A stretch of 64,000 bases of DNA. Source: Pseudosulfitobacter sp. DSM 107133 (GTDB taxonomy: Bacteria; Pseudomonadota; Alphaproteobacteria; Rhodobacterales; Rhodobacteraceae). The notes under the pieces were generated by a model. That model did not search any database, had not been told where the DNA came from, and saw only the letters and a program-made list of their open reading frames with translations. This document shows positions 28,546 to 44,166 of this stretch, piece by piece. The translations under genes and the position numbers were made by a program. The stretch covers positions 1 through 64,000 of the forward strand of contig NZ_CP085156.1 of the NCBI RefSeq assembly GCF_022788695.1, in the 5' to 3' direction. Numbering within the stretch: position 1 is the stretch's first letter; every line of letters begins with the position of its first letter.

Positions 28546-29490
28546 ATGAACATGCGCGCAACCGCATCGCCGCTGGCAGCAGAACTCAAGGCCCATACCG
28601 GCCGCTTCACCGACAAGGAATTCGACTGGAACGCCTTTCCTTCGAATGCCGGTTTCGACGAACTGGCGCGAGCGCAGATGCGCTATATCGGGTCCGGCGG
28701 CTCCCCCAAGGTCGGCGATACCTCGACCCTCAAGTCCGACAATTTCACCGTCTCGCTGATCTATAAAGAGCCCGGCAAATATGCCGCCTGCCACAGCCAC
28801 GAGATCGAGGAGAGCTTCCTCATCATCGACGGCGCGCTGATCGTCGGCTGGGAAAAAGATGGCGAGGTCTGCGAGGTCAACCTCGGCCCCAAGGACATGA
28901 TTCTCAACGCCCGCGAAATCGGCCATGGCTTCCGCGTCGACGGGGTGGAGCCGGTGCTGATGTCGATCTCGGTCGACGTGGGCAAGCCGCTGCCGCCGGT
29001 CTATCACTATCACCCCAAGGAACATGCGCCGGAACTGGCGCGGGCCTTTGGCGCCAAGCCGGGCGAAACCATCAAGTTCGACCCGGCAGGCGACCACCCG
29101 CTGCAAAAGCTGATGGCGCAATACGTGATTCGCCACGTGGACCAGCCGACCATCTGGGAAGACGCGGGCTTTTCCCGCAAGGTCTATGTCGGCGAGGGCG
29201 GTCTGAGCCATGACACCTGCTGCAAGGAGATGTGGGGCGTGCCGTCGCGTGTCGGCCTCAAGGGCTTTACCCGCGACGTCGAAGACGCCTTCCTGGTGCT
29301 TGAAGGCAGCCTGACCGTCGGTTGGGAAGACAATGGCGAAACCGTCGAGGTGGAACTGGGGCCGCGTGACCTGGTCAAGACACCCGCGGGCCGCACACAC
29401 TGGATCCGCAACGACGGCGCAGGTGCCGCCACCGTCTGGCACGTGATTGGTTCTGCCAAAGAGGATGGCGTGGTCTACGAAGCCGCGTAA
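28546..29490 (+). CDS. bicupin protein, probable metal-dependent dioxygenase or isomerase
   Basis: 314 residues with two cupin barrels. The first keeps a metal-binding pattern (CHSHEIEESFLIIDGALIVGW, His/His/Glu, with a later His in EIGHGF). In the second the equivalent histidines are mostly replaced (SHDTCCKEM, VEDAFLVLEGSLTVGW). A GCAGGAGG ribosome site is 8 bases ahead of the ATG. Bicupins of this kind include gentisate-type ring-cleaving and oxalate-type enzymes; which one this is cannot be told. It is transcribed alone, divergent from IclR-1, and separated from the next operon by 297 bases. Confidence 0.75.
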   Translation: MNMRATASPLAAELKAHTGRFTDKEFDWNAFPSNAGFDELARAQMRYIGSGGSPKVGDTSTLKSDNFTVSLIYKEPGKYAACHSHEIEESFLIIDGALIVGWEKDGEVCEVNLGPKDMILNAREIGHGFRVDGVEPVLMSISVDVGKPLPPVYHYHPKEHAPELARAFGAKPGETIKFDPAGDHPLQKLMAQYVIRHVDQPTIWEDAGFSRKVYVGEGGLSHDTCCKEMWGVPSRVGLKGFTRDVEDAFLVLEGSLTVGWEDNGETVEVELGPRDLVKTPAGRTHWIRNDGAGAATVWHVIGSAKEDGVVYEAA

Positions 29491-29684
29491 GCGCCTGAAT
29501 CCCAATTGTTAACTGGTATGGCGGATTGCCCCGCCATACCTGAACGCGCCGCTTGCGCGTCACCAGATGGCTGCGCGCAACCCTTGCGTCGTCTTCTGAT
29601 TGTCATAACGATACCAGTGACTTGACCTGTTTACCGCGGCCGAAAATGCGATCGCGAGCCCCCGAAAAAAATTTTTGAAAAGAC

Positions 29685-29745
29685 TTGACACACCGGGGGT
29701 TATTGCAGCTACCATCAAAAGTGAACATATGGTTCAAATATGAAC
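29685..29745 (+). promoter_or_regulatory. promoter and IclR-type operator of the catabolic operon
   Basis: A -35-like TTGACA at 29685-29690 is followed 17-19 bases later by a weak -10 (GCTACC/TACCAT). Directly downstream lie three half-sites: TGAAC (29722-29726), GTTCA (29732-29736) and TGAAC (29741-29745). The last two form GTTCA-AATA-TGAAC, the same palindrome as at 44153-44166 in front of the IclR-2 gene. Placement after the -10 suggests repression by blocking. Confidence 0.65.
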
Positions 29746-29787
29746 ACTAACTAGACAAGACATCAAGCAACCGAGAGGAGCCACGTC

Positions 29788-30090
29788 ATGGATGCTTTCA
29801 AGGACAGACTTGCACAGCGGGCCGCGGACACCAGTCGCCCCGCGCTTGCGCATCAATGCCGGGGGCGGGAGCTGGAGCCGCAGGAAGCGGCCTTTGCGAC
29901 AACCCTGATGGAGGTCTATGCCGAGGCCGGCCATGACTGGGATGCCGTCGCCGCCGCCCTGACAGACCGCGGGTTCAAGGCGCCGGATTCCGGCCGCACC
30001 GACTGGACAGCTGACCTGGTTCACGAAGAACTGGCGACGATCAACGCCTCGCTCGACGCGGCCTATGCGGAGCATGGTTATGGCGCTTGA
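29788..30090 (+). CDS. small recombinase-like HTH protein of Rieske loci
   Basis: 100-residue protein with no cysteines or membrane segment. The part from ATTLMEVYAEAGHDWDAVAAALTDRGFKAPD to TADLVHEELATI looks like the short helix-turn-helix called recombinase-like that I recall as a frequent companion of Rieske oxygenase genes. It starts after AGAGGAGCC, is first in the operon and overlaps the ABC ATPase gene by 11 bases. Its role is unknown; it could be a regulator or a small component of the oxygenase. Confidence 0.5.
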   Translation: MDAFKDRLAQRAADTSRPALAHQCRGRELEPQEAAFATTLMEVYAEAGHDWDAVAAALTDRGFKAPDSGRTDWTADLVHEELATINASLDAAYAEHGYGA

Positions 30091-30850
30091 GTTCCGAGGC
30101 GTGACCAAGAAGTTCACCACCAACGCAGGCGACCGCCTGACTGCGGTGAATGACGTGAGCTTCAAGGTGAACGAAGGCGAATTCGTCTCGGTCGTCGGGC
30201 CTTCGGGCTGCGGCAAGTCGACGATCCTGTCGATGACCGCCGGGCTTTACCAACCCACCGAAGGCGAGGTCCTGGTCTCGGACGAGGCGGTCACCGGCCC
30301 CAATTCGCATGTCGGTTTCATGCTGCAGAAAGACCTGCTGCTGCCCTGGCGCTCGATCATCTCCAATATCGAGTTCGGGCTGGAAGCGCGCGGCGTGGCC
30401 AAGACCGAACGGCGCGAACGCGCCATGAAGGAACTGGCGCATTGCCAGCTTTCCGGCTTCGACAGCCACTATCCCTATCAGTTGTCCGGTGGGATGCGGC
30501 AGCGCGCGGCGCTGGCCCGAACGCTGGCCATCGACCCCGAGATCATCCTGCTGGACGAGCCCTTCTCGGCGCTGGACGCCCAGACCAAGCTGCTGCTGCA
30601 GAATTCCTTCGCGGGCACCATTGCCGAGTCGGGCAAGACAACGCTGCTGATCACCCACGATCTGGTGGAAGCGGTGCTGATGTCGGATCGCATCCTGGTG
30701 CTCTCGGAACGTCCCGGCACCATCGTGGCCGAGATCAAGGTCGACCTGCCAAAGCGTGACCGTCCGATCGAACGCCGCGTCTTGCCGGAGGTGTCGGAAT
30801 ATGCCGCACAGCTCTTCAAGCACCTGAAACTCGAAGAAAAGGCCGCCTGA
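30080..30850 (+). CDS. NitT/TauT-type ABC transporter ATPase
   Basis: 256 residues: Walker A GPSGCGKST, Q-loop LQKDLLLPWRS (typical of nitrate/taurine/sulfonate-type importers), signature LSGGMRQRA, Walker B IILLDEPFSALD and H-loop THDLVEA. The start is placed at MALEFRG; MVM six bases earlier is also in frame. It powers the importer formed with the next two genes. Confidence 0.92.
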   Translation: MALEFRGVTKKFTTNAGDRLTAVNDVSFKVNEGEFVSVVGPSGCGKSTILSMTAGLYQPTEGEVLVSDEAVTGPNSHVGFMLQKDLLLPWRSIISNIEFGLEARGVAKTERRERAMKELAHCQLSGFDSHYPYQLSGGMRQRAALARTLAIDPEIILLDEPFSALDAQTKLLLQNSFAGTIAESGKTTLLITHDLVEAVLMSDRILVLSERPGTIVAEIKVDLPKRDRPIERRVLPEVSEYAAQLFKHLKLEEKAA

Positions 30851-30881
30851 GGCCGCCGCTCGGAACAGGGAGTCCCGAACC

Positions 30882-31856
30882 ATGAAACATTCCATCCTAT
30901 CCACTTTTGCCGCCGTCGCTCTGGCCGTTTCCGCCAGTGCCGCCTTTGCCACCGACAAGGTCACATACCTGTTTCCGGCGCCCGATTTCCTTCCGGCCTT
31001 TGCGCCGTTCCAGCTTGCCAAGGGCAAGGGATATTTCGAGGATGCCGGGCTCGACGTCACCTTCCAGGTGGGCAAGGGCGGCGCCGACGTGGCGACCCAG
31101 GTCGCGCTTGGCAATGCTGATCTGGGCGGCGGCATCGGCGACACGCCGATCATCGTGCGCGCCAACGGGCTGAAAATCCGTGGCGTGGCGCTTTTGGGCG
31201 GGCGCGGGCTGACGCAGCTCGCCTGGCGCGCGGACACGGGCATTTCCGGCCCCGAGGACCTGAAAGGCAAGTCGGTCGGCGTGCTGTCGTTCCAGGACAC
31301 CACCTATTACAACCTGCTGGGCGTGCTTGCCTCGGTCGGGCTGACCAAGAACGACGTCGATATCCAGGCCGTGGGCCCCGGCGGCATCATCCAGCTGAGC
31401 ATCGCAGGCAAACTCGACGCCATGTCGGGTGTGCCGGAATGGATCGCCGCCATCGAGGCCGCGGGCGTTGCCATGGACCAGATGCCGGTCGACACCGTCT
31501 TCCCGGCCATGGCGCAGGCGATCATCGCCTCGGATGACACCATCGCCGCGCGCCCCGAGGTGGTGAGAGGTTTTGTCCAGGCGGTGCTGCGCGGCGTGCG
31601 CGATATCTCCGAAGACCCGGCGGCTGCTGCTGCCGACTACGTCAAGCTGGTGCCGCAACACGCTGAAAACCAGGCGGGCGTCGAGGCGATCCTGCGGGCC
31701 TATGCCGAGCTGATCTATCCCGAAGGCGAAAACCAGCCGCTGGGCACCTTCAACCCCGACCGAATCAAGGCGGTTCAGGACTTCTACCTCGACGCCGGCC
31801 TCGTCCGCACCGCCGTGCCGGTCGAGGAGCTTTACACCAACGAGTTCGCCAAATGA
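30882..31856 (+). CDS. NMT1/SsuA-like solute-binding protein
   Basis: 324-residue periplasmic protein with a Sec signal (MKHSILSTFAAVALAVSASA, cut near AFA) and the fold signature of NitT/TauT and pyrimidine-precursor binders (FQLAKGKGYFEDAGLDVTF, GNADLGGGIGDTP, LKGKSVGVLSFQDTTYY). The ligand should be the substrate or an early precursor of the catabolic pathway encoded downstream. A GGGAG element precedes the ATG, and the stop overlaps the permease start (ATGA). Confidence 0.88.
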   Translation: MKHSILSTFAAVALAVSASAAFATDKVTYLFPAPDFLPAFAPFQLAKGKGYFEDAGLDVTFQVGKGGADVATQVALGNADLGGGIGDTPIIVRANGLKIRGVALLGGRGLTQLAWRADTGISGPEDLKGKSVGVLSFQDTTYYNLLGVLASVGLTKNDVDIQAVGPGGIIQLSIAGKLDAMSGVPEWIAAIEAAGVAMDQMPVDTVFPAMAQAIIASDDTIAARPEVVRGFVQAVLRGVRDISEDPAAAAADYVKLVPQHAENQAGVEAILRAYAELIYPEGENQPLGTFNPDRIKAVQDFYLDAGLVRTAVPVEELYTNEFAK

Positions 31857-32695
31857 CCGACGCCACTCAGGCCGTGGCCGGGAAGACATCCCCGGCCGCC
31901 AAAGCCTCCGCTTCAAAGGGACCCCGCCTCATGCGCCTTGCCAATCCCCTCTATGCCAGCCTCGGGCTTCTGGTCCTCGTGCTTCTGGCCTGGGAAATCC
32001 TGCCCACCGCGCTGGATGTTCCCAAGTTCATCATCCCCACGCTGAGCGACTGCCTGTCCGAACTGGCGCGCATGTGGCAATTCGAAGGGCTGCTGGGTCA
32101 CTTCCTGTCCACCGCGCTTTATACCGTGCTTGGGTTCATCATCGGGTCGGCCCTCGGCGCCGTTCTGGGCTACCTGCTGGGCATGTCGGAGTTCTGGGAA
32201 AAGGTGCTCTCGCCCTACATTCTCGCGCTGCAGATCGCGCCGAAGGTGGCCTTCGCTCCGCTGTTCATCATGTGGTTCGGCTACAATTCGATACCCAAGC
32301 TTCTGGTCACCGTGCTGATCGTGTTCTTCCCGGTGCTGGTCAATGTGCTGCAGGCGATGCGCACTGTCGACCGCGACCTGGTGAACCTCGCCCGGGCCTA
32401 TAACCTCAGCCGCCTCGGCGTGTTCTGGAAGGTCGAGATGCCGTCGACCCTGCCCAACCTGATGGCCGGGCTGCGCATCGCCTCGACCCTTGCCGTGATT
32501 GGCGTGACCGTGGGTGAGCTTGTCGGCGGCAATACCGGGCTCGGCTTCCTGATCTCCTACGGTGGCGGCCAGGCCAATGCGGCCATGGTGTTCAACGCCA
32601 TCCTGCTGCTCACCGTGATCGGCTACGCCCTCTATGTCGCGCTCGTCCGGATCGAGACCCGCGTTCTGCATTACCTGCCCCGTGCCGACCACTGA
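31853..32695 (+). CDS. NitT/TauT-type ABC transporter permease
   Basis: 280-residue membrane protein with a soluble N-terminal stretch of about 35 residues, six predicted helices, and the EAA loop ARAYNLSRLGVFWKVEMPSTLPNLMAGLRIAS near residue 185 that contacts the ATPase. It completes the importer. The 4-base overlap with the binding-protein gene shows coupling. Confidence 0.9.
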   Translation: MTDATQAVAGKTSPAAKASASKGPRLMRLANPLYASLGLLVLVLLAWEILPTALDVPKFIIPTLSDCLSELARMWQFEGLLGHFLSTALYTVLGFIIGSALGAVLGYLLGMSEFWEKVLSPYILALQIAPKVAFAPLFIMWFGYNSIPKLLVTVLIVFFPVLVNVLQAMRTVDRDLVNLARAYNLSRLGVFWKVEMPSTLPNLMAGLRIASTLAVIGVTVGELVGGNTGLGFLISYGGGQANAAMVFNAILLLTVIGYALYVALVRIETRVLHYLPRADH

Positions 32696-32754: not shown

Positions 32755-33801
32755 ATGACTGTCATCGACAAGAAAGCGCTGATCGAAAAGCGCGTGAACG
32801 AAGGCCTGAAGGGCCAGTGGTATCCGGTCGCCAAGTCGGTCGAGATCAAGGACTCGCGCCCCTTCGGCACCAAGCTCCTCGGCCAGAAGCTCGTGCTCTG
32901 GCGCGACGGCGCCGGCAATATCCGCTGCCTTGAGGATTTCTGCCCCCACCGCGGCGCGCCGCTGTCTTATGGCGAGGTGCATGATGGCCATGTCGCCTGC
33001 CGCTATCACGGCGTGGTGGTCGATGGCGAGGGCGTGGTCCAGCGGGTGCCCGCGATGCCGGAATGCGCCCTTGAGGGTCGCAAGGCACTGCAATCCTACA
33101 CCGTGCAGGAAAGCAACGACGCGGTCTTTGTCTATGTGCCTTCCGTCGACCGTCCCGAGGCGCCGGAACTGGTGCTGCCCAAGGAGATGACCTCCGACGA
33201 ATGGACCGGGTTCCTCTGCACTTCGGTCTGGGAATCGAACTACCGCTATGCACTCGACAACCTCGCCGACCCGATGCACGGCTGCTACCTGCACGCCGAC
33301 AGCTTTACCCTGGCCTTCGGGTCGAAACAGGACCTGATGCAGCTCAACAAGACCGACGAGGGTTTCCGCATCGAGCGTGTTGGCCAGACCGGCGAGAACT
33401 TCGACTGGACCGAGTTCGAAATCCATCCCGGCTCGATGTTCTGTTTCCTCGACATCCCCTATCCGCCCGCGGCGGGCCCCGGCGGCATCTTCCGCATCAT
33501 CGGCTTCACCACCCCAGTGGATGAAAACACCTGCCGCGTGTTCTTCTGGCGGATGCGCAAGGTCGAAGGCACGGCGCGTGAAAGCTGGCGTTTCCTCTAT
33601 CGCGCCATCCTCGAAACCAACCACTGGAACGTGCTGGAGCAGGACCGGGTGATGCTGGAGGGCATGCCGGACGACGCCCGCAAGCGCGAGATGCTGTACC
33701 AGCATGACCTGGGCGTGAGCCGCATTCGCCAGATCCTGACGCGTGCCGCCAAGGCGCAGATCGAGGCCGAGCTGAAATCCGAAACGGTGGCGGCGGAATG
33801 A
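32755..33801 (+). CDS. Rieske non-heme iron oxygenase, alpha subunit
   Basis: 348 residues. The Rieske 2Fe-2S ligands are Cys63, His65, Cys82 and His85 (CPH ... CRYH). The mononuclear iron ligands are His175 and His180 (DPMHGCYLH, with bridging Asp172), and the third is probably Asp297 in EQDRVMLEG. The size and layout fit the phthalate/vanillate-type single-subunit oxygenases, and no beta subunit is encoded nearby. Such enzymes hydroxylate or demethylate aromatic or heterocyclic compounds and need an electron donor; the FprA-type reductase and flavodoxin at 41-42.7 kb are the only candidates here. The ATG follows GGGAGAAG. Confidence 0.92.
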   Translation: MTVIDKKALIEKRVNEGLKGQWYPVAKSVEIKDSRPFGTKLLGQKLVLWRDGAGNIRCLEDFCPHRGAPLSYGEVHDGHVACRYHGVVVDGEGVVQRVPAMPECALEGRKALQSYTVQESNDAVFVYVPSVDRPEAPELVLPKEMTSDEWTGFLCTSVWESNYRYALDNLADPMHGCYLHADSFTLAFGSKQDLMQLNKTDEGFRIERVGQTGENFDWTEFEIHPGSMFCFLDIPYPPAAGPGGIFRIIGFTTPVDENTCRVFFWRMRKVEGTARESWRFLYRAILETNHWNVLEQDRVMLEGMPDDARKREMLYQHDLGVSRIRQILTRAAKAQIEAELKSETVAAE

Positions 33802-34538
33802 GCCTCGAGGACCGTCATATCCTTGTCACCGGCGCGGCGCGCGGTCTGGGCGCTGAAATCGCCCGGTCGCTCGCTGCCAAGGGGGCACGCCTGATCCTCG
33901 GCGATATCGCCGAGGAGGAAGGCCGCGCCACGGCAGAAGCGCTGGACGCGGCTTTCGTCAAGGTCGACCTGGGCGATCCGGCGTCGATCCAGGCCTGCGG
34001 CGCGGCGGTGGCGGAACTGACGGATGGCAAGTTGCACGGGCTGATCAACAACGGCGCCATTGCCACCGGGATCGGCGGCATTCCTTACGACGATATCGAG
34101 CTCGAAAGCTGGGACCTGGTGCAGCGCGTCAACGTGCGCGGCACCTGGCTGATGGTCCGCGCCTGCGCGCCTTTGCTCAAGGCATCCGGCTCTGGACGCA
34201 TCGTCAACATGGCATCCGACACCGCGCTTTGGGGCGCGCCCCGGCTGCTGTCCTATGTCGCCAGCAAGGGCGCGGTGATCGCCATGACCCGCTCGCTGGC
34301 GCGCGAACTGGGACCGGACCGGATCGGGGTGACGGCGGTGGCGCCGGGTATCCTGACCACGGAAAGCACCGACTATGTGCCCGAGGCGCGCCACCGGCAG
34401 TATTCCGAGGGCCGCGCCGTGCCCGGCCCGCAAGCGCCGCAGGACATCACCGATGTCGTGGCCTTCCTCGTCGAAGAAGGCGCGCTGACGCTCACCGGGC
34501 AGCTTCTGCCCGTCAACAACGGGTTCGTTTTCGCATGA
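33798..34538 (+). CDS. short-chain dehydrogenase/reductase (SDR-1)
   Basis: 246-residue classical SDR: the cofactor motif TGAARGLGAEIA, an acidic residue after the second strand (GDIAEEE) pointing to NAD, NNGA, and the active-site Ser ... LLSYVASKGAV with Tyr-x-x-x-Lys. It ends in the usual INNGF-like VNNGFVFA. Coupled by 4-base overlaps to the oxygenase before and the hydrolase after. A cis-diol or alcohol dehydrogenase step after the oxygenase is a reasonable inference. Confidence 0.88.
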   Translation: MSLEDRHILVTGAARGLGAEIARSLAAKGARLILGDIAEEEGRATAEALDAAFVKVDLGDPASIQACGAAVAELTDGKLHGLINNGAIATGIGGIPYDDIELESWDLVQRVNVRGTWLMVRACAPLLKASGSGRIVNMASDTALWGAPRLLSYVASKGAVIAMTRSLARELGPDRIGVTAVAPGILTTESTDYVPEARHRQYSEGRAVPGPQAPQDITDVVAFLVEEGALTLTGQLLPVNNGFVFA

Positions 34539-35344
34539 GCTGGGTTTCGCATATCTCCGAGGGCATCGCCTGGCTCGAACGTCCCGCCAGGGGCGAGACG
34601 CTGGTGCTGTTGCACGGCATCGGCTCCAACGCCGGATCGTTCGCGCCGCTGCTGCCGCATCTGCCCGAGACCACCCGGGTGATCGCCTGGAACGCGCCGG
34701 GCTATGGTGGCTCCGATCCGCTGGCGCAGGACTGGCCACAGGCGCAGGATTACGCCACCGCGCTGCGGGGTCTGCTCGACCGGCTCCACATCGGCACCTG
34801 CGCGCTGCTTGGACATTCGCTGGGCGCGCTCGTGGCGGCCGCCTTTGCTGCCGGGCATGCCGACAGGGTGACGCATCTGACCCTCGCCGCGCCCGCCATC
34901 GGCCATGGCGTCACCCCCGGCGAAGTGCTGAGCGCCGCGGCGCAGATCAGGATCGATGATCTGGAGCGTCAGGGCGCCAAGGCCTTTGCCGCCGCCCGCG
35001 CGCCGCGTCTGGTTTTTCGCCCCGAGGACAACCCCGAGTCGCTGGCGCTGGTTCAGACCGCCATGGGCCAGGTCACGATGCCCGGCTATGGCCAGGCCGC
35101 ACGGATGCTGGCCTCTGGCCGTCTTCTGGACGATGCCGAACGGCTTTGGTTGCCGACCGACGTGATTGTCGGCGCCGAGGATCGCGTGACCCCGCCCGAG
35201 GGCGCCCGGCGCGTCCATGGCGTGCTGCATGCCAATGCGCGGGGCCGCTACACCGAACTGCCCGATCTCGGGCATGCGCTTTATCAACAGGACCCGGCCC
35301 GCTTTGCGCGTGCGCTGGACCTGACGGCCGCTGCCGCGGCGTGA
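34535..35344 (+). CDS. alpha/beta hydrolase
   Basis: 269 residues with an oxyanion HGIGSNAGSF, nucleophile elbow GHSLG (Ser95), acid in GAEDRVTP and His in PDLGHALYQQ, giving the full triad. Meta-cleavage product hydrolases that act after extradiol dioxygenases have this form, and a ring-cleaving dioxygenase is the next gene, so C-C bond hydrolysis is inferred; an esterase is possible. It starts on the SDR-1 stop (ATGA). Confidence 0.85.
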   Translation: MSWVSHISEGIAWLERPARGETLVLLHGIGSNAGSFAPLLPHLPETTRVIAWNAPGYGGSDPLAQDWPQAQDYATALRGLLDRLHIGTCALLGHSLGALVAAAFAAGHADRVTHLTLAAPAIGHGVTPGEVLSAAAQIRIDDLERQGAKAFAAARAPRLVFRPEDNPESLALVQTAMGQVTMPGYGQAARMLASGRLLDDAERLWLPTDVIVGAEDRVTPPEGARRVHGVLHANARGRYTELPDLGHALYQQDPARFARALDLTAAAAA

Positions 35345-35364: not shown

Positions 35365-36294
35365 ATGACCGATATCATACGCACCGAACGGCTTCGCGGC
35401 ATCATGATGCGCGGCCCGGGCCTGACCCGGACATTGCCCTTCTACGAAGACATGTGGGGCCTGAAACTGGCTCATGCCGAGGACGGCACAGCGCTCTTGC
35501 GCGGCACCGGGGAGGAGGCGTTTCTCTACGGGCTGAAGGATGGGTCGGTGTTTGGCATCGAGTACATCCATTTCGCCATGCCCGACCGCGCCAGCATGGA
35601 TGCGCTTCACGCGCAGTGCCTGGCCAAGGGCGCGCCGGTTCTGGGCACGCCCGCGGAGTTCGACGACTGGTCCGGCGGCTATGGCTTCGAGGTGCTGGAT
35701 CCGGACAATCGCCGCCTGCGCTTTCGCTGTGACGCCCGTACGCTGGACGAAGAGCCGGAATGGGCCAAGCCGCGCAAAGTGAGCCACGTGGTTCTGAACG
35801 CGCCCGAAATGGAGGCGACGCAGGCGTTCTACGAAACCGTTCTGGGCTTCCGCGTGTCGGATTATTCCGCCGACCAGATGGTCTTTCTGCGCTGCAACAC
35901 CGATCACCACGCGATAGCGCTGGTGCGCGGTGACTATGCCAGTGTCAACCACGTGGCGTTCGAAATGCCGACGCTGAACGAATTCATGCGCGGCATCGGC
36001 CGGATGAAACAGAAGGGCCATGTGCCGACCTGGGGGCCGGGGCGGCACGGGCCGGGCGACAACCCGTTTGCCTATTTCGTCTCGCCCTCGGGCTTCGTGA
36101 TCGAGTTCACCTCGGAGGTGCAGCAGATCGACGAAGCGACCCACGAGGCGCAGGTCTGGCCGCGCGACGACCCCGAGAAGATGGATCAATGGATGACCGC
36201 AGGCCCGCCGACCCCGGCGCAGCGCGCGGTAATGCAGGGGCGGCCCGATCCGGGCTTTCCCGAACTTCGGACCAAGGCTGAAGGAGCCGCGTGA
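35365..36294 (+). CDS. type I extradiol ring-cleavage dioxygenase (VOC fold)
   Basis: 309 residues with two vicinal-oxygen-chelate modules. The C-terminal module has the three iron ligands of type I extradiol enzymes: His141 (VSHVVL), His196 (VNHVAFEM) and Glu247 (GFVIEFTSE), with Tyr237 and a preceding His in GRHGPGDNPFAY. It should cleave a catechol-like intermediate next to the diol. The last roughly 45 residues are an extension after the glutamate. A GGGAGAGGA ribosome site is present. Confidence 0.85.
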   Translation: MTDIIRTERLRGIMMRGPGLTRTLPFYEDMWGLKLAHAEDGTALLRGTGEEAFLYGLKDGSVFGIEYIHFAMPDRASMDALHAQCLAKGAPVLGTPAEFDDWSGGYGFEVLDPDNRRLRFRCDARTLDEEPEWAKPRKVSHVVLNAPEMEATQAFYETVLGFRVSDYSADQMVFLRCNTDHHAIALVRGDYASVNHVAFEMPTLNEFMRGIGRMKQKGHVPTWGPGRHGPGDNPFAYFVSPSGFVIEFTSEVQQIDEATHEAQVWPRDDPEKMDQWMTAGPPTPAQRAVMQGRPDPGFPELRTKAEGAA

Positions 36295-37082: not shown

Positions 37083-37094
37083 GGAATGCGGACC

Positions 37095-38768
37095 ATGAAA
37101 CACGATACCATCAGCAAGACCGAAACCGTCGGCGATTTCATCGCGCATTATCTGGCCGAGGTCGGGGTGACCACGATGTTCGGCGTGATCTCGATCCATA
37201 ACATGCCCATTCTCGACGCCGTGGCGCGACAGGGCCGCATCCGTTTCGTCCCCGCCCGCGGCGAGGCCGGGGCGATGAACATGGCGGATGCCTATGCGCG
37301 GGTCTCCGGCGGACTTGGCGTCTGCATCACCTCGACCGGCACGGCGGCGGGCAATGCCGCCGGGGCTCAGGCCGAGGCGCTGACCGCGGGTAGCCGGGTG
37401 CTGCATATCACCACGCAGGTCGATCTCGGCTATGCCGACCGTGACCGCGCGGCGATCCATGACGTGCCGCGCCAGCCGGAAATGCTGCGCGGCGTGTCGA
37501 AGTCGGTGCACCGGATGTGGGATGCCAATGGCGCGGTCGGTGCTCTGACAGCGGCGGTATCGGATGCGCTCTCGGCGCCTTCGGGGCCGGTGAGCCTTGA
37601 AATCCCGGTGGATGTGCAACGCTCGCCCGCCGTGGTCATGGCGACGGTGCATGCGCCCGTGCCGACCCGGCCGGTTGCGCCGCAATCGGCGGTGGAAGAG
37701 ATGGCGCGGCTGATCGCACAGGCCAAGCGCCCGCTGGTCTGGCTGGGCGGCGGCGCGCGGGGTGCGGTGGCCGAGGCAACCGAACTGATGCGTCGTGGCG
37801 TGGGGGTCGTGACCTCGACCAACGGGCGCGGCGTGGTCTCCGAGGAAGACTCCGCCAACCTCGGCGCCTTCAACATGGGCCCCGACGCGATGGAGCTTTA
37901 CGGCTCTTGCGACCTGATGCTGGTGGTGGGCTCGCGCCTGCGCGGCAACGAGACCCGCAACAACAAGATGCCGCTGCCGCGTCCCCTGTTGCAGATCGAT
38001 GCCGACGCGGGGCAGGGCGGGCGCAACTACCCGGTGGATGTCTTCGCCCATGGCGATGCGGCGGATACCCTGCGGCGGATCCTCGACCTGCTGCCCGAAA
38101 AGCTCGACACGGACGAAAGCCTGCGCTTTGACATCGCACGCCTGCGGGCCCAGGCCGAAGGCCGTCTGCGCGATACCCTTGGGCCCTACACGGTGGTGGC
38201 CGAGGCGATCAGCGAAGCGGTCAGCAAGGGCGGCAACGCCTGGGTGCGCGACGTGACGATCTCGAATTCGACCTATGGCAACCGCTACGTGCGGCTCTCC
38301 GATCCGCGACAGGGCGTGCATGCGCTCGGCGGCGGCATCGGCCAGGGCGTGGCGATGGGCGTCGGCGCGGCGCTGGCCTCCGAGGGGCCCAAGGCGATCA
38401 CCCTTCTGGGCGATGGCGGCACCATGCTGGGGCTGGCCGAGATGATCACCGCGGTCGATGAAAACGCGCCGCTGGTCTACGTGCTGATGAACGATCAGGC
38501 CTATGGCGTGATCGAGAACATCCAGGATGCGCAATACGACAGCCGCCGACATTACTCCAAGGTCGCGGTGCCGGAGTTCGGGGCCTTCTGCGGCTCTATC
38601 AGGATGCCGCATGTCAAGGTCAGCGCGGTCGACGATTTCGAGGCTGCCCTGCAGGTGGCGCTTGCGGCCGAGGGTCCGCGCCTGATCGAGGTGGACATGT
38701 GCGCCATCGGCCCCTTTGCCGAAGCCTTCGCCGGTCCGCCCGCCGGGGCCGCAGGCAAGAAGGAGTAA
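37095..38768 (+). CDS. ThDP-dependent enzyme of the acetolactate synthase family
   Basis: 557 residues in the Pyr/central/PP order. The catalytic Glu is in ARGEAGAMNMADAYARV (about residue 57). The ThDP-Mg motif GDGGTMLGLAEM ... YVLMND is near residue 440. Members include acetolactate synthase, benzoylformate decarboxylase, oxalyl-CoA decarboxylase and C-C lyases. In this operon it could decarboxylate a 2-oxo acid from ring cleavage to an aldehyde for the ALDH downstream (inference). ATG at MKHDTI; another ATG 9 bases before is in frame. Confidence 0.85.
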   Translation: MKHDTISKTETVGDFIAHYLAEVGVTTMFGVISIHNMPILDAVARQGRIRFVPARGEAGAMNMADAYARVSGGLGVCITSTGTAAGNAAGAQAEALTAGSRVLHITTQVDLGYADRDRAAIHDVPRQPEMLRGVSKSVHRMWDANGAVGALTAAVSDALSAPSGPVSLEIPVDVQRSPAVVMATVHAPVPTRPVAPQSAVEEMARLIAQAKRPLVWLGGGARGAVAEATELMRRGVGVVTSTNGRGVVSEEDSANLGAFNMGPDAMELYGSCDLMLVVGSRLRGNETRNNKMPLPRPLLQIDADAGQGGRNYPVDVFAHGDAADTLRRILDLLPEKLDTDESLRFDIARLRAQAEGRLRDTLGPYTVVAEAISEAVSKGGNAWVRDVTISNSTYGNRYVRLSDPRQGVHALGGGIGQGVAMGVGAALASEGPKAITLLGDGGTMLGLAEMITAVDENAPLVYVLMNDQAYGVIENIQDAQYDSRRHYSKVAVPEFGAFCGSIRMPHVKVSAVDDFEAALQVALAAEGPRLIEVDMCAIGPFAEAFAGPPAGAAGKKE

Positions 38769-38771
38769 GCC

Positions 38772-39551
38772 ATGCATCTCGGCCTGGTTGGATACGGCAA
38801 TATCGGCAAATCGCTGCTCGATCTTCTGGGCGCGGAGGACCTCGCCCGGGTGACTGTGCTGGCGCGCCCGGGCAAGGCGGTGGCGCATCCGCGCGCCGAG
38901 GTGGCAGAGACCACCGAGGCCCTGATCGCCGCCCGCCCCGACCTGTTGGTCGAATGCGCCGGTCATGCGGCGGTGCGCGAAACGGTATTGCCTGCGCTGA
39001 AAGCCGGGATCGACGTCGTGCTGGTCTCTATCGGTGCGCTCAGCGATGCCGCGCTGGAGACCGCCCTGCACCGGGCGGCGCAAGACGGTGGCGCCATGCT
39101 GATCCTGCCTGCGGGCGCGATTGGCGGGATCGACCTTCTGGCCGCCATGGCGCCCGCCGGCGGGCTGGAGGTGCGCTACACCGGCACCAAGCCGCCCCAG
39201 GCCTGGCGGGGCACACCGGCGGAAGACCGGATCGACCTCGACGGCCTGACCGAAGCGACGGTGTTCTTTTCCGGCACCGCCCGCGACGTCGCACAGGCCT
39301 TTCCCAAGAATGCCAATGTCGCGGCAACGCTGGCGCTGGCAGGCGCGGGTATGGATGCGACGCAGGTGGAGCTGGTGGCGGACCCGACAGCGGCGGGCAA
39401 CCGGCACGCCTATGCCGTGACCTCCCCGCTGGGCGATTACGAGATCCGGATCGACAACCGGGCCTCGAACGGCAACGCCAAGACCAGCGCGGCAACGATC
39501 TATTCGGTGCTGCGCGAGATAAGAAACCGCAAAGGACCGGTGGTGATCTGA
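38772..39551 (+). CDS. L-aspartate dehydrogenase-like (NadX family) enzyme
   Basis: 259 residues: Rossmann motif GLVGYGNIGKSLL, LVECAGHAAVRETVLPALKAG, PAGAIGGIDLLAAM and NANVAATLALAGAGMDATQVELVADP, the pattern of the aspartate dehydrogenase/DUF108 family. Those enzymes oxidise aspartate to iminoaspartate with NAD(P) or catalyse the reverse amination. Such a gene in an aromatic-type operon suggests that an amino or imino acid intermediate is handled. Three bases after the ThDP gene. Confidence 0.85.
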   Translation: MHLGLVGYGNIGKSLLDLLGAEDLARVTVLARPGKAVAHPRAEVAETTEALIAARPDLLVECAGHAAVRETVLPALKAGIDVVLVSIGALSDAALETALHRAAQDGGAMLILPAGAIGGIDLLAAMAPAGGLEVRYTGTKPPQAWRGTPAEDRIDLDGLTEATVFFSGTARDVAQAFPKNANVAATLALAGAGMDATQVELVADPTAAGNRHAYAVTSPLGDYEIRIDNRASNGNAKTSAATIYSVLREIRNRKGPVVI

Positions 39552-39552
39552 G

Positions 39553-41052
39553 ATGAAAATGGAACGCGATATCCTGCCCTCCGGGGCGCTCTTCATCGGT
39601 GGCGACTGGCGCGAGGGCCGCGGGGCCGAGATCGCCTCGGTCTTTCCCGCCGATGGCACGTTGAACCGCACTCTCAAGGGGGCCTCTGCCGCGGATGGCG
39701 AAGAGGCGATTGCCCGCGCCAGGGCCGCGCAGCCCGCCTGGGGTGCCTTGAAACCGCATGAACGGGCGCGGGTGCTGCATGCGATTGCCGACGGGATCGA
39801 GGCCAACACGGGCCGCATCTCGCAGATCCAGTCCTGCGACACCGGCAAGACCCTCGCCGAAACCGCCGCACTGGCCGGGTCCGCCGCGGGAACCTTCCGC
39901 TATTTCGCCGCCGTGGCCGAGACCATGGACGACGACCTGACCGCGCAACGCGGCGGCGCGCTGACGCTCTCGGTGCATGAACCGATGGGCGTGGTGGGCG
40001 CGATCACGCCGTGGAATTCCCCTATCGCCTCGGATGCGCAGAAGCTGGCCCCGGCGCTGGCCGCGGGCAACGCCGTCATCCTCAAACCCGCCTCCTGGTC
40101 ACCACTCACGGCACTGGAACTGGCGCGGATCGTCGATGAGGCGGGGCTGCCCAAGGGCCTGCTTTCGGTGCTGCCCGGTTCGGGACGCGAGATCGGCAAC
40201 CTGCTGGTCGAGCATCCCGACATCGCCAAGATCAGCTTTACCGGCGGCACCGTCACCGGGCGCAACCTGGCGGAAAAGGCCGGGCGCAAGCTGATGCCGG
40301 TGAGCCTTGAGCTGGGCGGCAAGTCGCCCACCATCGTCTTCGACGATGCCGATATCGAGGTGGCTTTGGCGGGCATCCTCTTCGGGGTGTTTTCCTCCAC
40401 CGGGCAAAGCTGCATCGCCGGGTCGCGGCTGTTCGTGCAGCGCGGCATCTATGACGATTTCGTTTCCCGGTTGGTCGCGGCGACCAAGCGGTTGCGGGTC
40501 GGCCATTCCTTTGAGCCCGGCACCCAGGTCGGGCCGCTGATCCACGAGGACCACCGCCAGGAGGTCGCGGGCCATGTCGCCCGCGCGCTGGAGGACGGTG
40601 GCAGGCTGCTGTGCGGCGGGGCGGCGCCCGATGGGGCCGCGTTTGCCAATGGCAGCTTCTACCTGCCGACGATCATCGAAGGGTTGGACAATACCTCGCG
40701 CCTGTGCCGTGAAGAGGTCTTTGGCCCGGTGCTGGCCGTGCTGCCCTTTGACGACGAGGCAGACGTGATCGCCCAGGGCAACGACAACGACTATGGCCTC
40801 GCCTGCGGCATCTGGACCCGCGATTTCCCGCGGGCCTGGCGGCTGGCGCGGGCGATCCGGGCGGGCACCGTCTGGATCAACACCTACAAGCAATTCTCGA
40901 TCTCGACCCCGTTCGGCGGCGATGGCGCCAGCGGGATCGGGCGCGAAAAGGGCCGTCAGGGGCTGCGCGCCTATATGCGTCAGAAGGCGATCTATGCCGA
41001 TCTGACCGGCGAACCGCATCCATGGGCGGCAGATGTGGTGAGGGCAGAATGA
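39553..41052 (+). CDS. aldehyde dehydrogenase
   Basis: 499-residue NAD(P)-dependent ALDH, full length. General base Glu in LELGGKSPTIVF (about residue 255), catalytic Cys in GQSCIAGSRLF, PWNSPIASDAQKLAPAL and the C-terminal INTYKQFSISTPFGG. It resembles the betaine/hydroxymuconic semialdehyde type. The substrate is probably the aldehyde made by an upstream enzyme. Overlaps the reductase gene by four bases. Confidence 0.9.
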   Translation: MKMERDILPSGALFIGGDWREGRGAEIASVFPADGTLNRTLKGASAADGEEAIARARAAQPAWGALKPHERARVLHAIADGIEANTGRISQIQSCDTGKTLAETAALAGSAAGTFRYFAAVAETMDDDLTAQRGGALTLSVHEPMGVVGAITPWNSPIASDAQKLAPALAAGNAVILKPASWSPLTALELARIVDEAGLPKGLLSVLPGSGREIGNLLVEHPDIAKISFTGGTVTGRNLAEKAGRKLMPVSLELGGKSPTIVFDDADIEVALAGILFGVFSSTGQSCIAGSRLFVQRGIYDDFVSRLVAATKRLRVGHSFEPGTQVGPLIHEDHRQEVAGHVARALEDGGRLLCGGAAPDGAAFANGSFYLPTIIEGLDNTSRLCREEVFGPVLAVLPFDDEADVIAQGNDNDYGLACGIWTRDFPRAWRLARAIRAGTVWINTYKQFSISTPFGGDGASGIGREKGRQGLRAYMRQKAIYADLTGEPHPWAADVVRAE

Positions 41053-42266
41053 CCGGACAGATTGCAATCATCGGCGCCGGGCCTTCGGGCTGTTTCCTGG
41101 CGCAGGCCTTGCTCAAGGCGCAACCCGACCTGCGGGTTGACCTGATCGACCGGCTGCCGGTGCCTTACGGGCTGGTGCGCTATGGCGTGGCGGCGGACCA
41201 CCAGGGCACCAAGGCCGTCACGCGCCAGTTCGCCCGGCTGTTCGAGCGGCAGGGCGCGCGGTTTTTCGGAAACGTCGGTGTCGGCACGGCAGTAACGCTG
41301 GACGATCTGCGCGGCGCCTATGACGCGGTGGTGCTGGCCGCGGGCCTTTCGGCGGACCGGGCGCTTGGTATCCCCGGTGGCGATCTGCCCGGCGTGCATG
41401 GCGCGGGCAAGCTGACACGGGCGCTGTACGAACATCCCGAGGCCGAGGCGCTGCCGGAGCTGGGGCCGAACCCGCTGATCGTCGGCAATGGCAACGTGGC
41501 GATTGACCTGCTGCGGCTGCTGGCCAAGTCGCCCGAGGAGTTCGACGGATCGGACCTGGGCGCCGGCCCGAGCGACTGGCTGGCGGGCAGCGGTATCGAG
41601 GAAATCACTATCACCGGACGCTCGCCCGCGGCGGCGGCGAAATTCGACACGGTGATGATCAAGGAACTGGGCAAGCTGACAGGTGTCACCATCCGCGTCA
41701 TCGGCGCGGGCGACAGCGACGACCCCGAGGCGCAGAAGAAACTGGCTGCCCTGACCGCGCTGGAAGGCGGCGACGGGCCGCGGCGCATCACCTTCCGCTT
41801 CGGGCTGACGCCGCTGGCGGTCGAAGGCGAGGGACAGGCCGCAGCGGTGCGGTTTGACAGCGCCGAGGGCGAAGAGGTGCTGGCCTGCACCTCCGTTCTG
41901 ACCGCCATCGGCTTTGACACGCCGGGCGATCTGCCCCGCGATGCGCTTTTGCAGGACGAACAAGACGGCGGGCTGGCCGCGGGGCTCTACGCCACCGGCT
42001 GGTTCCGGCGCGGCCCGCGCGGCACCATCCCGGACAACCGGGCCGATGCCAAGGCGCTGGCCGACCGTATCCTGGGCGAGCTGACCCCCGATCCGGCGAA
42101 ACCAGGCGCCGCGATCCTGCAAGGTCTCGACGCGATTACCGATTACGACGGCTGGTGCCGCATCGACAGTGCCGAGACCGCAAATCCACCGCCCGGACGT
42201 TGCCGGGCCAAGATCACCACCCGCGAGGCCATGCTGACCCTCGCCCGACAGGAGGACATGCAATGA
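41049..42266 (+). CDS. FprA/adrenodoxin reductase-type NADPH reductase
   Basis: 405-residue FAD protein of the adrenodoxin-reductase branch: FAD motif IGAGPSGCFLA, PVPYGLVRYGVAADHQGTK, NADPH site GNGNVAIDLLRLL and the C-terminal ATGWFRRGPRGTIPDNRADA. Reductases of this type reduce ferredoxins or flavodoxins from NADPH. The gene overlaps the flavodoxin gene (ATGA), a strong sign of partnership. It also overlaps the ALDH stop. Confidence 0.88.
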   Translation: MTGQIAIIGAGPSGCFLAQALLKAQPDLRVDLIDRLPVPYGLVRYGVAADHQGTKAVTRQFARLFERQGARFFGNVGVGTAVTLDDLRGAYDAVVLAAGLSADRALGIPGGDLPGVHGAGKLTRALYEHPEAEALPELGPNPLIVGNGNVAIDLLRLLAKSPEEFDGSDLGAGPSDWLAGSGIEEITITGRSPAAAAKFDTVMIKELGKLTGVTIRVIGAGDSDDPEAQKKLAALTALEGGDGPRRITFRFGLTPLAVEGEGQAAAVRFDSAEGEEVLACTSVLTAIGFDTPGDLPRDALLQDEQDGGLAAGLYATGWFRRGPRGTIPDNRADAKALADRILGELTPDPAKPGAAILQGLDAITDYDGWCRIDSAETANPPPGRCRAKITTREAMLTLARQEDMQ

Positions 42267-42730
42267 ACATCCAGGTGCTTTACGGAACCGAAACCGGCAA
42301 TGCCGAAATGCTGGCCGAAGACATCGCCGCCGAACTGGAAGCGGAGCACGAGGTCACAGCGACCAACCTGTCGGATTTCGACCCTGCGGACTTCGATCGC
42401 GGCACGCTCTACCTGCTGGTCTGCTCGACCTATGGCGACGGCGAACTGCCCGCCTCGGCCCAGCCCTTTGCCGAGAAGATGGAAGCCGAACAGCCCGACC
42501 TGACCGGCGTGCATTTCGGCATCTTCGGCATGGGCGACAGCGAGTATGAAGAGACCTTCAACGGCGGTCCCGCGACCCTGGCCGAACTGATGATCGCGCG
42601 CGGGGCGACGCAACTGGGCGAGCGGATCGCGCATGATGCCTCGGGCGCGGACATGGCCGAGGACCTGGCCTTTCCCTGGGCCGAAGAGATCGTCGGCATG
42701 GCCAGCGACGCACTGGGACAGGCGGCATGA
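42263..42730 (+). CDS. flavodoxin (MioC/CysJ-like FMN protein)
   Basis: 155 residues: FMN phosphate loop YGTETGNAEMLA (residues 7-18), CSTYGDGELPASA and FGMGDSEYEETFNGG, all three FMN loops present. The protein is acidic. Short single-domain flavodoxins carry one or two electrons to an oxygenase. With no ferredoxin gene in the operon, it is the likely donor to the Rieske oxygenase 8.5 kb upstream (inference). Cindoxin of the cineole P450 is a known analogue for another oxygenase class. Confidence 0.88.
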   Translation: MNIQVLYGTETGNAEMLAEDIAAELEAEHEVTATNLSDFDPADFDRGTLYLLVCSTYGDGELPASAQPFAEKMEAEQPDLTGVHFGIFGMGDSEYEETFNGGPATLAELMIARGATQLGERIAHDASGADMAEDLAFPWAEEIVGMASDALGQAA

Positions 42731-43329
42731 CCACGGCGGCAGAGATCCGAGAGCGCCTGACCCGACCCTGGCAGCATGGCGCGCACGCGAATTTTCGCGG
42801 CGTGACCTGTGACGAGGCGCTGGACCTGTCGGGCCTGGCGCTGGATGGTGTTGATTTCACCGGGGCACAGTTCCGCGGCGGGATCGACGCCCGGGGCGCG
42901 CGGTTCGACGGGCTGGCGTGGTTTCGCGACGTGGGCATCGACGGCCCGGCGCGATTTGACGGCGCGGTCTTCATGAACGACGCGCGGTTCGAAGGGGCGC
43001 AGTTCAATGGCCCCGCGCAGTTCCACGAGGCCGAATTCCGCGGCATCGGGCGCTTCGACGGCGCGCGCTTTGCCGATGGTGCGGATTTCGCCGGCACGAC
43101 CTGTTACGGCAATTTCTCGCTGCAATCGGTCGAGAGCCGCGGCGCGGTCAGTTTCGAAGGCAGCGAGTGGCTGGGCGGGCTCTGGTGTGACAATGCCCGT
43201 CTGCCCGACACGGTCGATCTGTCCGGGACCCAGGTGCATGGACGGCTCTGGCTGCGCCGGGCGCGCAAAGGCAATGCGGCGCTGCAATCGACGGATTTTG
43301 GCATGTCTTTCGGCTATACCTACATCTGA
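42727..43329 (+). CDS. pentapeptide-repeat-like protein
   Basis: 200 residues; from about residue 25 to 160 a repeated five-residue pattern with Phe or Leu in the centre (ARFDG, AVFMN, ARFEG, AQFNG, AQFHE, AEFRG, ARFAD) which folds as a right-handed four-sided helix. No signal peptide. It overlaps flavodoxin by four bases and is the last operon gene, ending 10 bases inside the convergent IclR-2 gene. Function unknown; such proteins may be scaffolds. Confidence 0.75.
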   Translation: MTTAAEIRERLTRPWQHGAHANFRGVTCDEALDLSGLALDGVDFTGAQFRGGIDARGARFDGLAWFRDVGIDGPARFDGAVFMNDARFEGAQFNGPAQFHEAEFRGIGRFDGARFADGADFAGTTCYGNFSLQSVESRGAVSFEGSEWLGGLWCDNARLPDTVDLSGTQVHGRLWLRRARKGNAALQSTDFGMSFGYTYI

Positions 43330-44141
43330 TCGGCAGCCCAGCCGCGATAGCCCAGGGCTTCCGAGATCTCCTGCGCTGCGTCTTTCAGCGTGCGCTCGAT
43401 CAATGCCGCCTGCTCGGTGCCCTCGGTGAAGATACTGGCGTAGCCGGTGACGTTGATCGCTGCCACGGCCTCGCCCCGGTGATCATAGACCGGGGCGGCG
43501 GCGGATCCGATCTCGGGCTCGAAGTTGGCCATGCTCCAGGACACCCCCCGCGCGCGGTCGTCGGCTAGCTGGTCCATCAGCGCATCGAGCGTGGTGCGAG
43601 TCTTGGCGGTATAGGCTTCCAGTGGATAGTCGGCATAGAGCGCCTGCAACTCCTGGCGTTTCAGTTCGGCCAGGAGAATCCGGCCGATGGTGGTGGCATG
43701 GGCGGGCAGCCGGGTGCCTTCGCGCACCGTGCTGGCCAGATGCGACACCGGGGTTTCGCGCGCCAGATAGACGATCTCATGGCCTTCGCGCACCCCGAGA
43801 TGCGCCGACAGTTTCAGTTTTTCGACCAGCTTCGACAGCACCGGTCGTGCCGAGGGCACGATGCCGCGGTCATTCAACGCTTCTGCGGCGAGCGAGATCA
43901 GCCCGGTGCCCAGCCGGTAGCCGCCCTCGTCGGGCAGCGCCTCGATGATGCGTTCGGCCTCCAGCGTCGCAAGGATGCGGATCAAGGTGGTGCGGTTGAC
44001 GCCGGTGGCCTTGGCCGCGCCGCTGATCTTGCGGCAGCGGTTGCCAGCCGCAATATAGCGCAGGACCGCCAGAGCGCGCACCACGGGCTGCACGGAATAC
44101 TCCGGCCGCTTGGCCCCCTCGGTGACGGTTTTGTTCATCAT
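43320..44141 (-). CDS. IclR-family transcriptional regulator (IclR-2)
   Basis: 273 residues with HTH (CRKISGAAKATGVNRTTLIRILATLEAERII) and IclR effector domain (SAHLGVREGHEIVYLA, ARGVSWSMANFEPEIGSAAAPVYDHRGEAVAAINVTGY). Convergent with the end of the catabolic operon. A perfect palindrome, GTTCA-N4-TGAAC, 12 bases upstream of the start is shared with the operon promoter at 29.7 kb, so this protein probably controls both itself and the operon. Two ATGs in a row at the start. Confidence 0.9.
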   Translation of the reverse strand: MMNKTVTEGAKRPEYSVQPVVRALAVLRYIAAGNRCRKISGAAKATGVNRTTLIRILATLEAERIIEALPDEGGYRLGTGLISLAAEALNDRGIVPSARPVLSKLVEKLKLSAHLGVREGHEIVYLARETPVSHLASTVREGTRLPAHATTIGRILLAELKRQELQALYADYPLEAYTAKTRTTLDALMDQLADDRARGVSWSMANFEPEIGSAAAPVYDHRGEAVAAINVTGYASIFTEGTEQAALIERTLKDAAQEISEALGYRGWAADQM

Positions 44142-44152
44142 GGCTCCGCTTT

Positions 44153-44166
44153 GTTCAATTGTGAAC
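44153..44166 (-). promoter_or_regulatory. IclR-2 operator palindrome
   Basis: GTTCA-ATTG-TGAAC, an exact inverted repeat 12 bases before the IclR-2 start. Same half-sites and spacing as 29732-29745 at the catabolic operon promoter. Confidence 0.65.

Follow-up and report, generated by a model that had tools for sequence, protein, structure and literature searches.

A Rieske oxygenase operon with its own importer

The 64,000-nt stretch of Pseudosulfitobacter sp. DSM 107133 (hereafter the window; contig C3 of a 5.21 Mb assembly) contains fifteen consecutive + strand genes at 29788–43329 that encode a Rieske oxygenase together with an importer, further catabolic enzymes and a flavodoxin. Intergenic gaps within this run range from −26 to +59 bases, the largest lying between the importer permease and the Rieske gene. 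The genes follow one another in the order below, shown with the flanking genes and predicted operators.

27682..28461, − strand: IclRn, IclR-family regulator (Pfam IclR_C and HTH_IclR above cut-off), divergent from the cupin gene
28546..29490 (alternative start 28486), + strand: bicupin (Pfam Cupin_2)
29722..29745: predicted IclR operator with three half-sites, TGAACATATGGTTCAAATATGAAC, upstream of the operon; exact palindrome GTTCAAATATGAAC at 29732
29788..30090, + strand: HTH_62 protein, first operon gene (PF20552)
30065..30850, + strand: importer ATPase (PF00005)
30882..31856, + strand: NMT1/SsuA-type binding protein (PF09084)
31853..32695, + strand: importer permease (PF00528)
32755..33801, + strand: Rieske oxygenase, alpha subunit only, proposed 7,8-dioxygenase (Pfam Rieske and VanA_C)
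33798..34538, + strand: SDR1, short-chain dehydrogenase/reductase (SDR) family with canonical YxxxK, proposed cis-dihydrodiol dehydrogenase
34535..35344, + strand: alpha/beta hydrolase, proposed lactam (or C-C) hydrolase (family match and conserved residues)
35365..36294, + strand: type I extradiol dioxygenase of the vicinal oxygen chelate (VOC) family (family match and iron site)
36291..37082, + strand: SDR2, proposed C=C reductase (NF005468 above cut-off)
37086..38768, + strand: thiamine diphosphate (ThDP) enzyme, proposed 2-oxo acid decarboxylase (NF005470, 749 bits, cut-off 495)
38772..39551, + strand: aspartate dehydrogenase of NadX type, proposed iminosuccinate reductase (NF009827, 257.9 bits, cut-off 226)
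39553..41052, + strand: aldehyde dehydrogenase, ALDH (PF00171)
41049..42266, + strand: FprA/adrenodoxin-reductase-type NAD(P)H reductase (best solved relative FprA, 171.8 bits)
42263..42730, + strand: flavodoxin (PF00258; best solved relative cindoxin 4oxx, 94.3 bits)
42727..43329, + strand: pentapeptide-repeat protein (PF13576)
43320..44141, − strand: IclRc, IclR-family regulator (PcaR/PcaU/PobR model 152 bits, under cut-off 284.75)
44153..44166: second predicted operator, GTTCAATTGTGAAC, upstream of IclRc

As the initial annotation had described, the eleven genes at 32755–43329 are open and co-directional, adjoin a NitT/TauT ABC importer (three genes of NMT1 type, 30065–32695, which like the HTH_62 gene precede them in the same direction), and are framed by two IclR genes on the − strand (27682–28461 and 43320–44141). 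It had also reported four-base overlaps at most junctions, and the ten junctions of this block measure −4, −4, +20, −4, +3, +3, +1, −4, −4 and −4 bases, which gives such overlaps at 6 of the 10. This layout supports a catabolic locus with its own importer, predicted to be co-transcribed. The locus had been bounded at 28546 and 44166; the left bound is the bicupin gene, which lies outside the main operon, with the operon probably starting just before 29788, and the right bound holds the second palindrome (44153–44166). The family identities assigned to the eleven "enzymes and carriers" were right, except that the eleventh, the pentapeptide-repeat protein, is neither enzyme nor carrier, and that SDR2, a member of the SDR family like SDR1, is not an ordinary one, having TxxxR for YxxxK.

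Three operon proteins (SDR2, the ThDP enzyme and NadX) exceed curated NCBIfam cut-offs, and catalytic residues are conserved. The Rieske oxygenase shows the hallmarks of its family as conserved C-x-H, C-x2-H and D-x2-H-x4-H stretches, and C63-P64-H65, C82, H85, D172, H175 and H180, which we take to be the cluster and iron ligands, are conserved in at least 92% of 72 sequences; its C-terminal domain is VanA_C, and a genome search with Ring_hydroxyl_A misses it. The VOC enzyme has its 2-His-1-Glu iron site (H141, H196 and E247, in at least 92% of 84), and its homologues have generic names only among the 120 listed of 1593. Likewise conserved are S95, D216 and H247 of the hydrolase (alignment of 91) and N210 and H212 of NadX (at least 92% of 91). 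In SDR2 we found TxxxR in 9/9 aligned SDR2 rows, with T158 and R162 in at least 92% of 102; its model has a predicted local distance difference test score (pLDDT) of 90.8 and lies nearest to P. aeruginosa Q9HYA2 (3lf1/3lf2; 56% identity), whose PDB title, in the part available, reads "Containing an Atypical Catalyt..." and names no function. Among the cupins, H-x-H and E-E are invariant in 37/37 sequences, and in the second motif the 21 bicupins have H where the 16 single cupins have R; the AlphaFold model of the bicupin (mean pLDDT 93.3) is nearest in fold to MncA, oxalate decarboxylase, vicilins, and quercetin and salicylate dioxygenases.

A proteobacterial cluster family with two entries

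The operon is real, conserved and, in the open literature searched, apparently uncharacterised. Rather than a combination standing alone, we found one variant of a cluster family that occurs in alpha-, beta- and gammaproteobacteria, and the set of oxygenase, VOC, ThDP, NadX-like and flavodoxin genes that the initial annotation had suggested searching for does recur. Relatives of the ThDP enzyme numbered at least 580 in a scan of named genomes, the closest among the best 80, which were kept, being that of Sulfitobacter sp. HI0040 (90%); of 398 genomes sampled evenly across the phylum, 15 had a match at E ≤ 1e-90. All 11/11 genes stand in the same order in plasmid loci from Nitratireductor sp. 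OM-1 and Paracoccus sp. MA, where the importer, HTH_62, bicupin and IclR genes are present too (in the Paracoccus locus the eleventh gene is annotated as hypothetical and matches at 47%), and because this order recurs in these two and in many other loci, it is not due to chance. Versions from Caballeronia, Klebsiella pneumoniae (adjoining tkt-epd-pgk) and Acinetobacter baumannii carry a flavin adenine dinucleotide-dependent reductase gene and major facilitator superfamily transporters; the Caballeronia version also has a ferredoxin gene, which is absent from the stretch compared in the other two, and a Novosphingobium plasmid has the gene set split into two blocks. From their annotations, A1S_0954 and A1S_0956-0958 appear to be the Acinetobacter version, and these genes were up 2.2 to 3.7-fold on mucin according to the part of a mucin study that was available (PMC5757984). 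PA3505 did not turn up among the matches listed in our literature search.

For locus comparison we used 74 stretches of at least 17 kb, with duplicates and one edge-cut locus removed, 60 with a Rieske gene and 14 without. The core across all 74 consists of SDR2 (73), the hydrolase (71), VOC (66), NadX (66), ALDH (63) and cupin (59) genes. SDR1 is present in 57/60 Rieske loci versus 1/14 Rieske-less loci, all 14 of which instead encode a flavin monooxygenase, FMO-B (11 of them with TRAP binding-protein genes); FMO-B also stands alongside the Rieske gene in 25/60. Among solved structures FMO-B is closest to tropone 2-monooxygenase and 6-hydroxynicotinate 3-monooxygenase, and the window's genome has no close copy of it, the best match being 32%. 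Because SDR1 tracks the Rieske gene and FMO-B fills the Rieske-less loci, these genes point to two routes to one catechol, and the plain reading is that the Rieske oxygenase with SDR1, or FMO-B as a phenol hydroxylase, would supply it to the VOC enzyme. On the ThDP tree the Rieske state switches at least 5 times, but there are just 3 supported independent pairs; of these, SDR1 accompanies the Rieske gene in 2.4 and is opposed to it in none, and FMO is opposed to it in 0.8. With only 3 such pairs, entry swapping amounts to consistent support and not to a significance test, and Fisher p-values for the entry-gene counts overstate the independence of the loci.

Electron supply varies among the Rieske loci. 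The window's operon lacks a ferredoxin or a VanB-type (FMN/2Fe-2S) reductase and has the FprA-type reductase and flavodoxin instead, a pair found in 24/60 Rieske loci and 0/14 others; a VanB-type reductase occurs in 16/60, a ferredoxin reductase in 6/60 (one locus with both), and 15/60 have none nearby. Against solved structures the flavodoxin scores highest with cindoxin, MioC following at 66.0 bits. Cindoxin is the electron donor of P450cin, and in both systems a cindoxin-like flavodoxin and a flavin reductase are encoded with the oxygenase, which here is a Rieske enzyme, its reductase being of the FprA/adrenodoxin-reductase type. The natural reading is that the flavodoxin would feed the Rieske oxygenase. 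To our knowledge, no dedicated search for precedents having been made, such an arrangement looks new; if correct, it would add a flavodoxin-fed variant to the Rieske oxygenases and would be the most unusual feature of the operon.

Several accessory genes accompany the clusters. HTH_62 was detected in 29/60 Rieske loci, a lower bound in that an annotated copy in L008 escaped detection, versus 1/14 others; the gene occurs once in the window's genome and in 0 of 14 control genomes, and in several lineages an HTH_62 (PF20552) gene immediately precedes a Rieske or importer gene. Its product is possibly an oxygenase accessory rather than a regulator. The pentapeptide-repeat gene shows a similar split (26/60 Rieske loci versus 1/14 others). 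A small conserved ORF (open reading frame) of ~110 aa with the motif LLTVxLxHDQSxNL lies near the Rieske gene at L038:2248-2577 (−), L066:8070-8426 (−) and L094:14844-15311 (+), and no Pfam family was found for the L038 copy. RidA-family genes occur in 7/60 Rieske loci and were seen within L014, L038, L042, L071, L073, L078, L085, L093 and L094, with Pfam confirmation for L014 and L093. Sulfatase-family genes, two of them Pfam-confirmed, are found in 6/14 Rieske-less versus 4/60 Rieske loci, and perhaps the natural substrate is able to arrive as a sulfate ester. Such genes lie beside clusters L043, L044, L046, L049, L052, L054, L056, L057, L064, L065, L089 and L120, and some sulfatase-bearing loci have a second type of flavin monooxygenase, FMO-A.

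A shared palindrome accompanies both entries. We observed GTTCA-N4-TGAAC at 49 sites in 1.96 Mb (104 loci) versus 0.78 expected from base composition, and ten scrambled control palindromes gave 0–4 matches each; after duplicate removal, 48 sites remain in 39/102 loci. For nearly all (46/49), the distance to the 5′ end of a labelled ORF is at most 250 bases, with ORFs taken from stop to stop. The palindrome is located 5′ of Rieske/importer operons, Rieske-less core operons and FMO-B genes, and is present in 19/60 Rieske loci and 11/14 others; being common to both entry types, it seems to mark one regulon. The window contains exactly two copies, at 29732 before the operon and at 44153 before IclRc. 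IclRc probably controls the operon, and we infer that it does so by binding this palindrome. Counting against such regulation, 21/32 HTH_62 upstream regions, including those of close relatives, lack even a looser palindrome.

A proposed route from kynurenate

Building on the observed gene families, residues, layout, entry swapping and palindrome, we infer a substrate and a reaction for each enzyme. Our tentative proposal, which we hold at a little less than even confidence, is that a quinoline-2-carboxylate is taken up by the operon's importer and degraded by its enzymes in nine steps, the most likely compound being kynurenate (4-hydroxyquinoline-2-carboxylate). The retention of NadX in 52/60 Rieske loci and 14/14 Rieske-less loci suggests that the substrate contains nitrogen and that a ring nitrogen leaves as aspartate, and a quinoline-2-carboxylate fits NadX because the aspartate skeleton is contained in it as N1, C2 and the carboxyl on C2, C3 and C4. 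The RidA genes are in keeping with an imine or enamine intermediate.

The classical kynurenate route runs through the 7,8-dihydrodiol and 7,8-dihydroxykynurenate, and then through carboxy-oxopropenyl-, carboxy-oxopropyl-, formylethyl- and carboxyethyl-dihydroxypicolinate. In the Pseudomonas enzymology of the 1960s, ring dihydroxylation is followed by extradiol opening and oxidative decarboxylation of the side chain, and the operon has the right enzyme type for each: the Rieske oxygenase and SDR1, encoded by linked genes, are the candidate 7,8-dioxygenase and dihydrodiol dehydrogenase, and the VOC enzyme with its H-H-E site, the ThDP enzyme and ALDH are the candidates for extradiol opening and for oxidative decarboxylation of the 2-oxo side chain. 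The likeness is one of enzyme types; we know of no genes for the classical Pseudomonas pathway, and the steps past carboxyethyl-dihydroxypicolinate are proposed here. The initial annotation had stated that the combination matches no pathway that it could name, a statement weakened by this fit, and had suggested hydroxylation, ring cleavage, C-C hydrolysis, decarboxylation and aldehyde oxidation. By enzyme type, hydroxylation, extradiol cleavage, decarboxylation and aldehyde oxidation stand, whereas C-C hydrolysis after cleavage is unproven and the operon has no usual meta-pathway hydratase or aldolase.

In the proposed scheme, the Rieske oxygenase, receiving electrons from NAD(P)H by way of the FprA-type reductase and the flavodoxin related to cindoxin, would form the 7,8-cis-dihydrodiol (step 1), which SDR1 would oxidize to 7,8-dihydroxykynurenate (step 2). 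The VOC enzyme would then cleave C8-C8a to give the oxopropenyl-dihydroxypicolinate (step 3), SDR2 would reduce the double bond of the side chain (step 4), the ThDP enzyme would decarboxylate the 2-oxo acid (step 5) and ALDH would yield 5-(2-carboxyethyl)-4,6-dihydroxypicolinate (step 6). The last three steps are our own proposal, drawn from the carbon balance: the hydrolase would open the pyridone (step 7), the cupin would carry out an oxygen-dependent beta-dicarbonyl cleavage of C4-C5 to 2-oxoglutarate and iminosuccinate (step 8), and NadX would reduce iminosuccinate to aspartate (step 9). All nine enzymes would be used and the carbons would balance (10 = 1 + 5 + 4), and xanthurenate, the 8-hydroxy analogue, would let relatives with FMO-B enter at step 3. 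That this scheme holds in every particular, from flavodoxin-driven Rieske entry (or FMO entry with xanthurenate) to the full split of kynurenate into CO2, 2-oxoglutarate and aspartate by way of cupin beta-dicarbonyl cleavage, an enoyl-reducing SDR that lacks YxxxK and nitrogen capture by NadX, we regard as unlikely.

If the proposal is correct, it would supply genes for a branch of tryptophan catabolism known as enzymology since the 1960s, and would indicate which bacteria (of soil and ocean, Klebsiella, Acinetobacter) may degrade these two signalling molecules of animals, kynurenate or xanthurenate. Some intermediates can be found in the literature in the parts available to us: papers name 7,8-dihydroxykynurenate, 5-(3′-carboxy-3′-oxopropyl)-4,6-dihydroxypicolinate and 5-(2′-carboxyethyl)-4,6-dihydroxypicolinate, and as the last two are one oxidative decarboxylation apart, the ThDP enzyme and ALDH would fit between them. 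Two titles seen in reference lists only are also relevant: one from 1963 concerns how 7,8-dihydroxykynurenic acid is formed, and one from 1961 the synthesis by Pseudomonas extracts of glutamic acid from kynurenic acid, which a 2-oxoglutarate product would explain. A 2017 paper, in the part seen, mentions a suggested kynurenic acid degradation pathway of Pseudomonas fluorescens.

A number of observations weigh against kynurenate, or against parts of the scheme. The identity of the substrate is a proposal, and among the matches listed from the open literature, to which our search was confined, we recognised no paper tying kynurenate to a Rieske gene; in the part available, an Acinetobacter kyn paper (PMC9162365) has KynU as its subject and does not take the cluster as its topic. 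Tryptophan 2,3-dioxygenase was found in 12/14 ThDP-positive genomes versus 84/136 others, at most a mild enrichment within one family sample, and in 12/12 it is not near the ThDP gene (on another contig in 11 and 1.3 Mb away in 1), although breaks between contigs of fragmented assemblies could conceal linkage. Such linkage to kynurenine genes would support the route but is not required by it. Speaking for kynurenate, L043 has a kynureninase gene (TIGR01814, 338 bits, cut-off 246.4) on the opposite strand at ~5 kb from the cluster, and L049 has a near-identical one; these are the only two cases, and since both loci are from near-identical ocean gammaproteobacteria the linkage counts as one event. 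Rieske loci without a recognisable VOC (8/60), NadX (8/60) or ALDH (11/60) gene mean that the exact route cannot run on cluster genes alone in every relative. Among the enzymes themselves, SDR2 is missing the usual catalytic Tyr and Lys, the fold matches of the bicupin are generic only, and the best curated model for FMO-B is 3-hydroxybenzoate 6-monooxygenase (282 bits, under the cut-off of 459), so that FMO-B does not favour an N-heterocycle. Finally, the sulfatase-family genes of some loci are left unexplained.

Alternative substrates and known pathways

The same chemistry might serve another benzo-fused N-heteroaromatic acid, such as quinaldate, an indole- or isoquinoline-derived acid or a sulfated hydroxyquinoline, with kynurenate at most an intermediate. 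Any such compound would be compatible with the two entry oxygenases, with NadX and with RidA, and the sulfatase-family genes described above point the same way. So does a molybdenum hydroxylase that adjoins one relative cluster, that of NK8, although its nearest relative is 4-hydroxybenzoyl-CoA reductase and not quinoline oxidoreductase, a match that is not specific and counts against the kynurenate proposal. However, a 2-carboxylate with a C4 oxygen gives the best carbon balance and the best match of NadX to N1-C2(COOH)-C3-C4, and no other fitting pathway was recognised among the literature matches listed; we consider such a substrate somewhat unlikely. Less probable still is a substrate with no ring nitrogen, in which a substituted catechol would be cleaved, the hydrolase would remove an acid as with 2-hydroxy-6-oxo-6-phenylhexa-2,4-dienoate (HOPDA), a ThDP decarboxylase or lyase would act on the C5 fragment, and NadX would only balance aspartate or NAD(P)H. 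The hydrolase does resemble BphD/HsaD-type and the VOC enzyme HpaD-type enzymes, and the curated model nearest to FMO-B suits such a compound; yet hydratase and aldolase families are absent among the operon genes, NadX is nearly always kept, and some loci have RidA genes. A mosaic, in which importer, Rieske block and ThDP-NadX-ALDH block would serve different compounds under a shared regulator, is highly improbable: the Rieske block (HTH_62, Rieske oxygenase, SDR1 and pentapeptide genes) can sit apart from the core, as in L058, but four-base overlaps span the block borders, one palindrome is common to the blocks and the core is near-constant in the 74 loci. Even with a substrate other than kynurenate, the two-entry module, palindrome and atypical SDR would define a widespread, apparently uncharacterised pathway.

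Three known pathways were compared and rejected. The bph, mhp and nah meta-cleavage pathways share with the window Rieske or flavin entry, an SDR dihydrodiol dehydrogenase, a type I extradiol enzyme and an alpha/beta hydrolase, but the window has ThDP, ALDH and NadX enzymes in place of hydratase and aldolase; no 2-oxopent-4-enoate hydratase and aldolase genes were found among the operon genes. The lum pathway of riboflavin/lumichrome catabolism likewise acts on an N-heterocycle with a Rieske oxygenase, an extradiol dioxygenase and a ThDP decarboxylase, and according to the part of the report seen (PMC12746152) it has an alpha/beta Rieske enzyme with ferredoxin, a two-subunit ThDP enzyme before ring opening and a xanthine oxidase; the window, in contrast, has a single alpha Rieske gene and a single ThDP gene. 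The term "aspartate dehydrogenase" is absent from the main text of that report. The auxin iad pathway with its IadD/E Rieske pair, known to us from parts of PMC10374108 and PMC12633357, was also considered and rejected.

Turning to the genomic setting, G+C content is 0.63–0.68 across 28–44 kb (0.67–0.68 at 36–44 kb), against 0.58 at 24–28 kb and 0.57–0.60 at 44–60 kb, yet it reaches 0.67 at 12–16 kb. An IS6-family transposase ORF (26876–27613) ends 68 bases before the IclRn gene, and its only matches in a plasmid collection are two Rhodobacteraceae records (84–90% DNA identity). Because of this ORF and the G+C step, it is plausible that the operon was acquired as an island. An Rfam search found no family, and a promoter scan gave 1 match versus 2.3 expected. 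Elsewhere in the window, a big molybdopterin oxidoreductase gene (18832–21819, 995 aa) has no visible tie to the cluster. At 45475–47783, a CaiB-type CoA transferase and an acyl-CoA dehydrogenase are encoded in tandem adjoining a LysR gene, and the nearest models for the CoA transferase are of the oxalate, mesaconate and glutarate types, all under cut-off.

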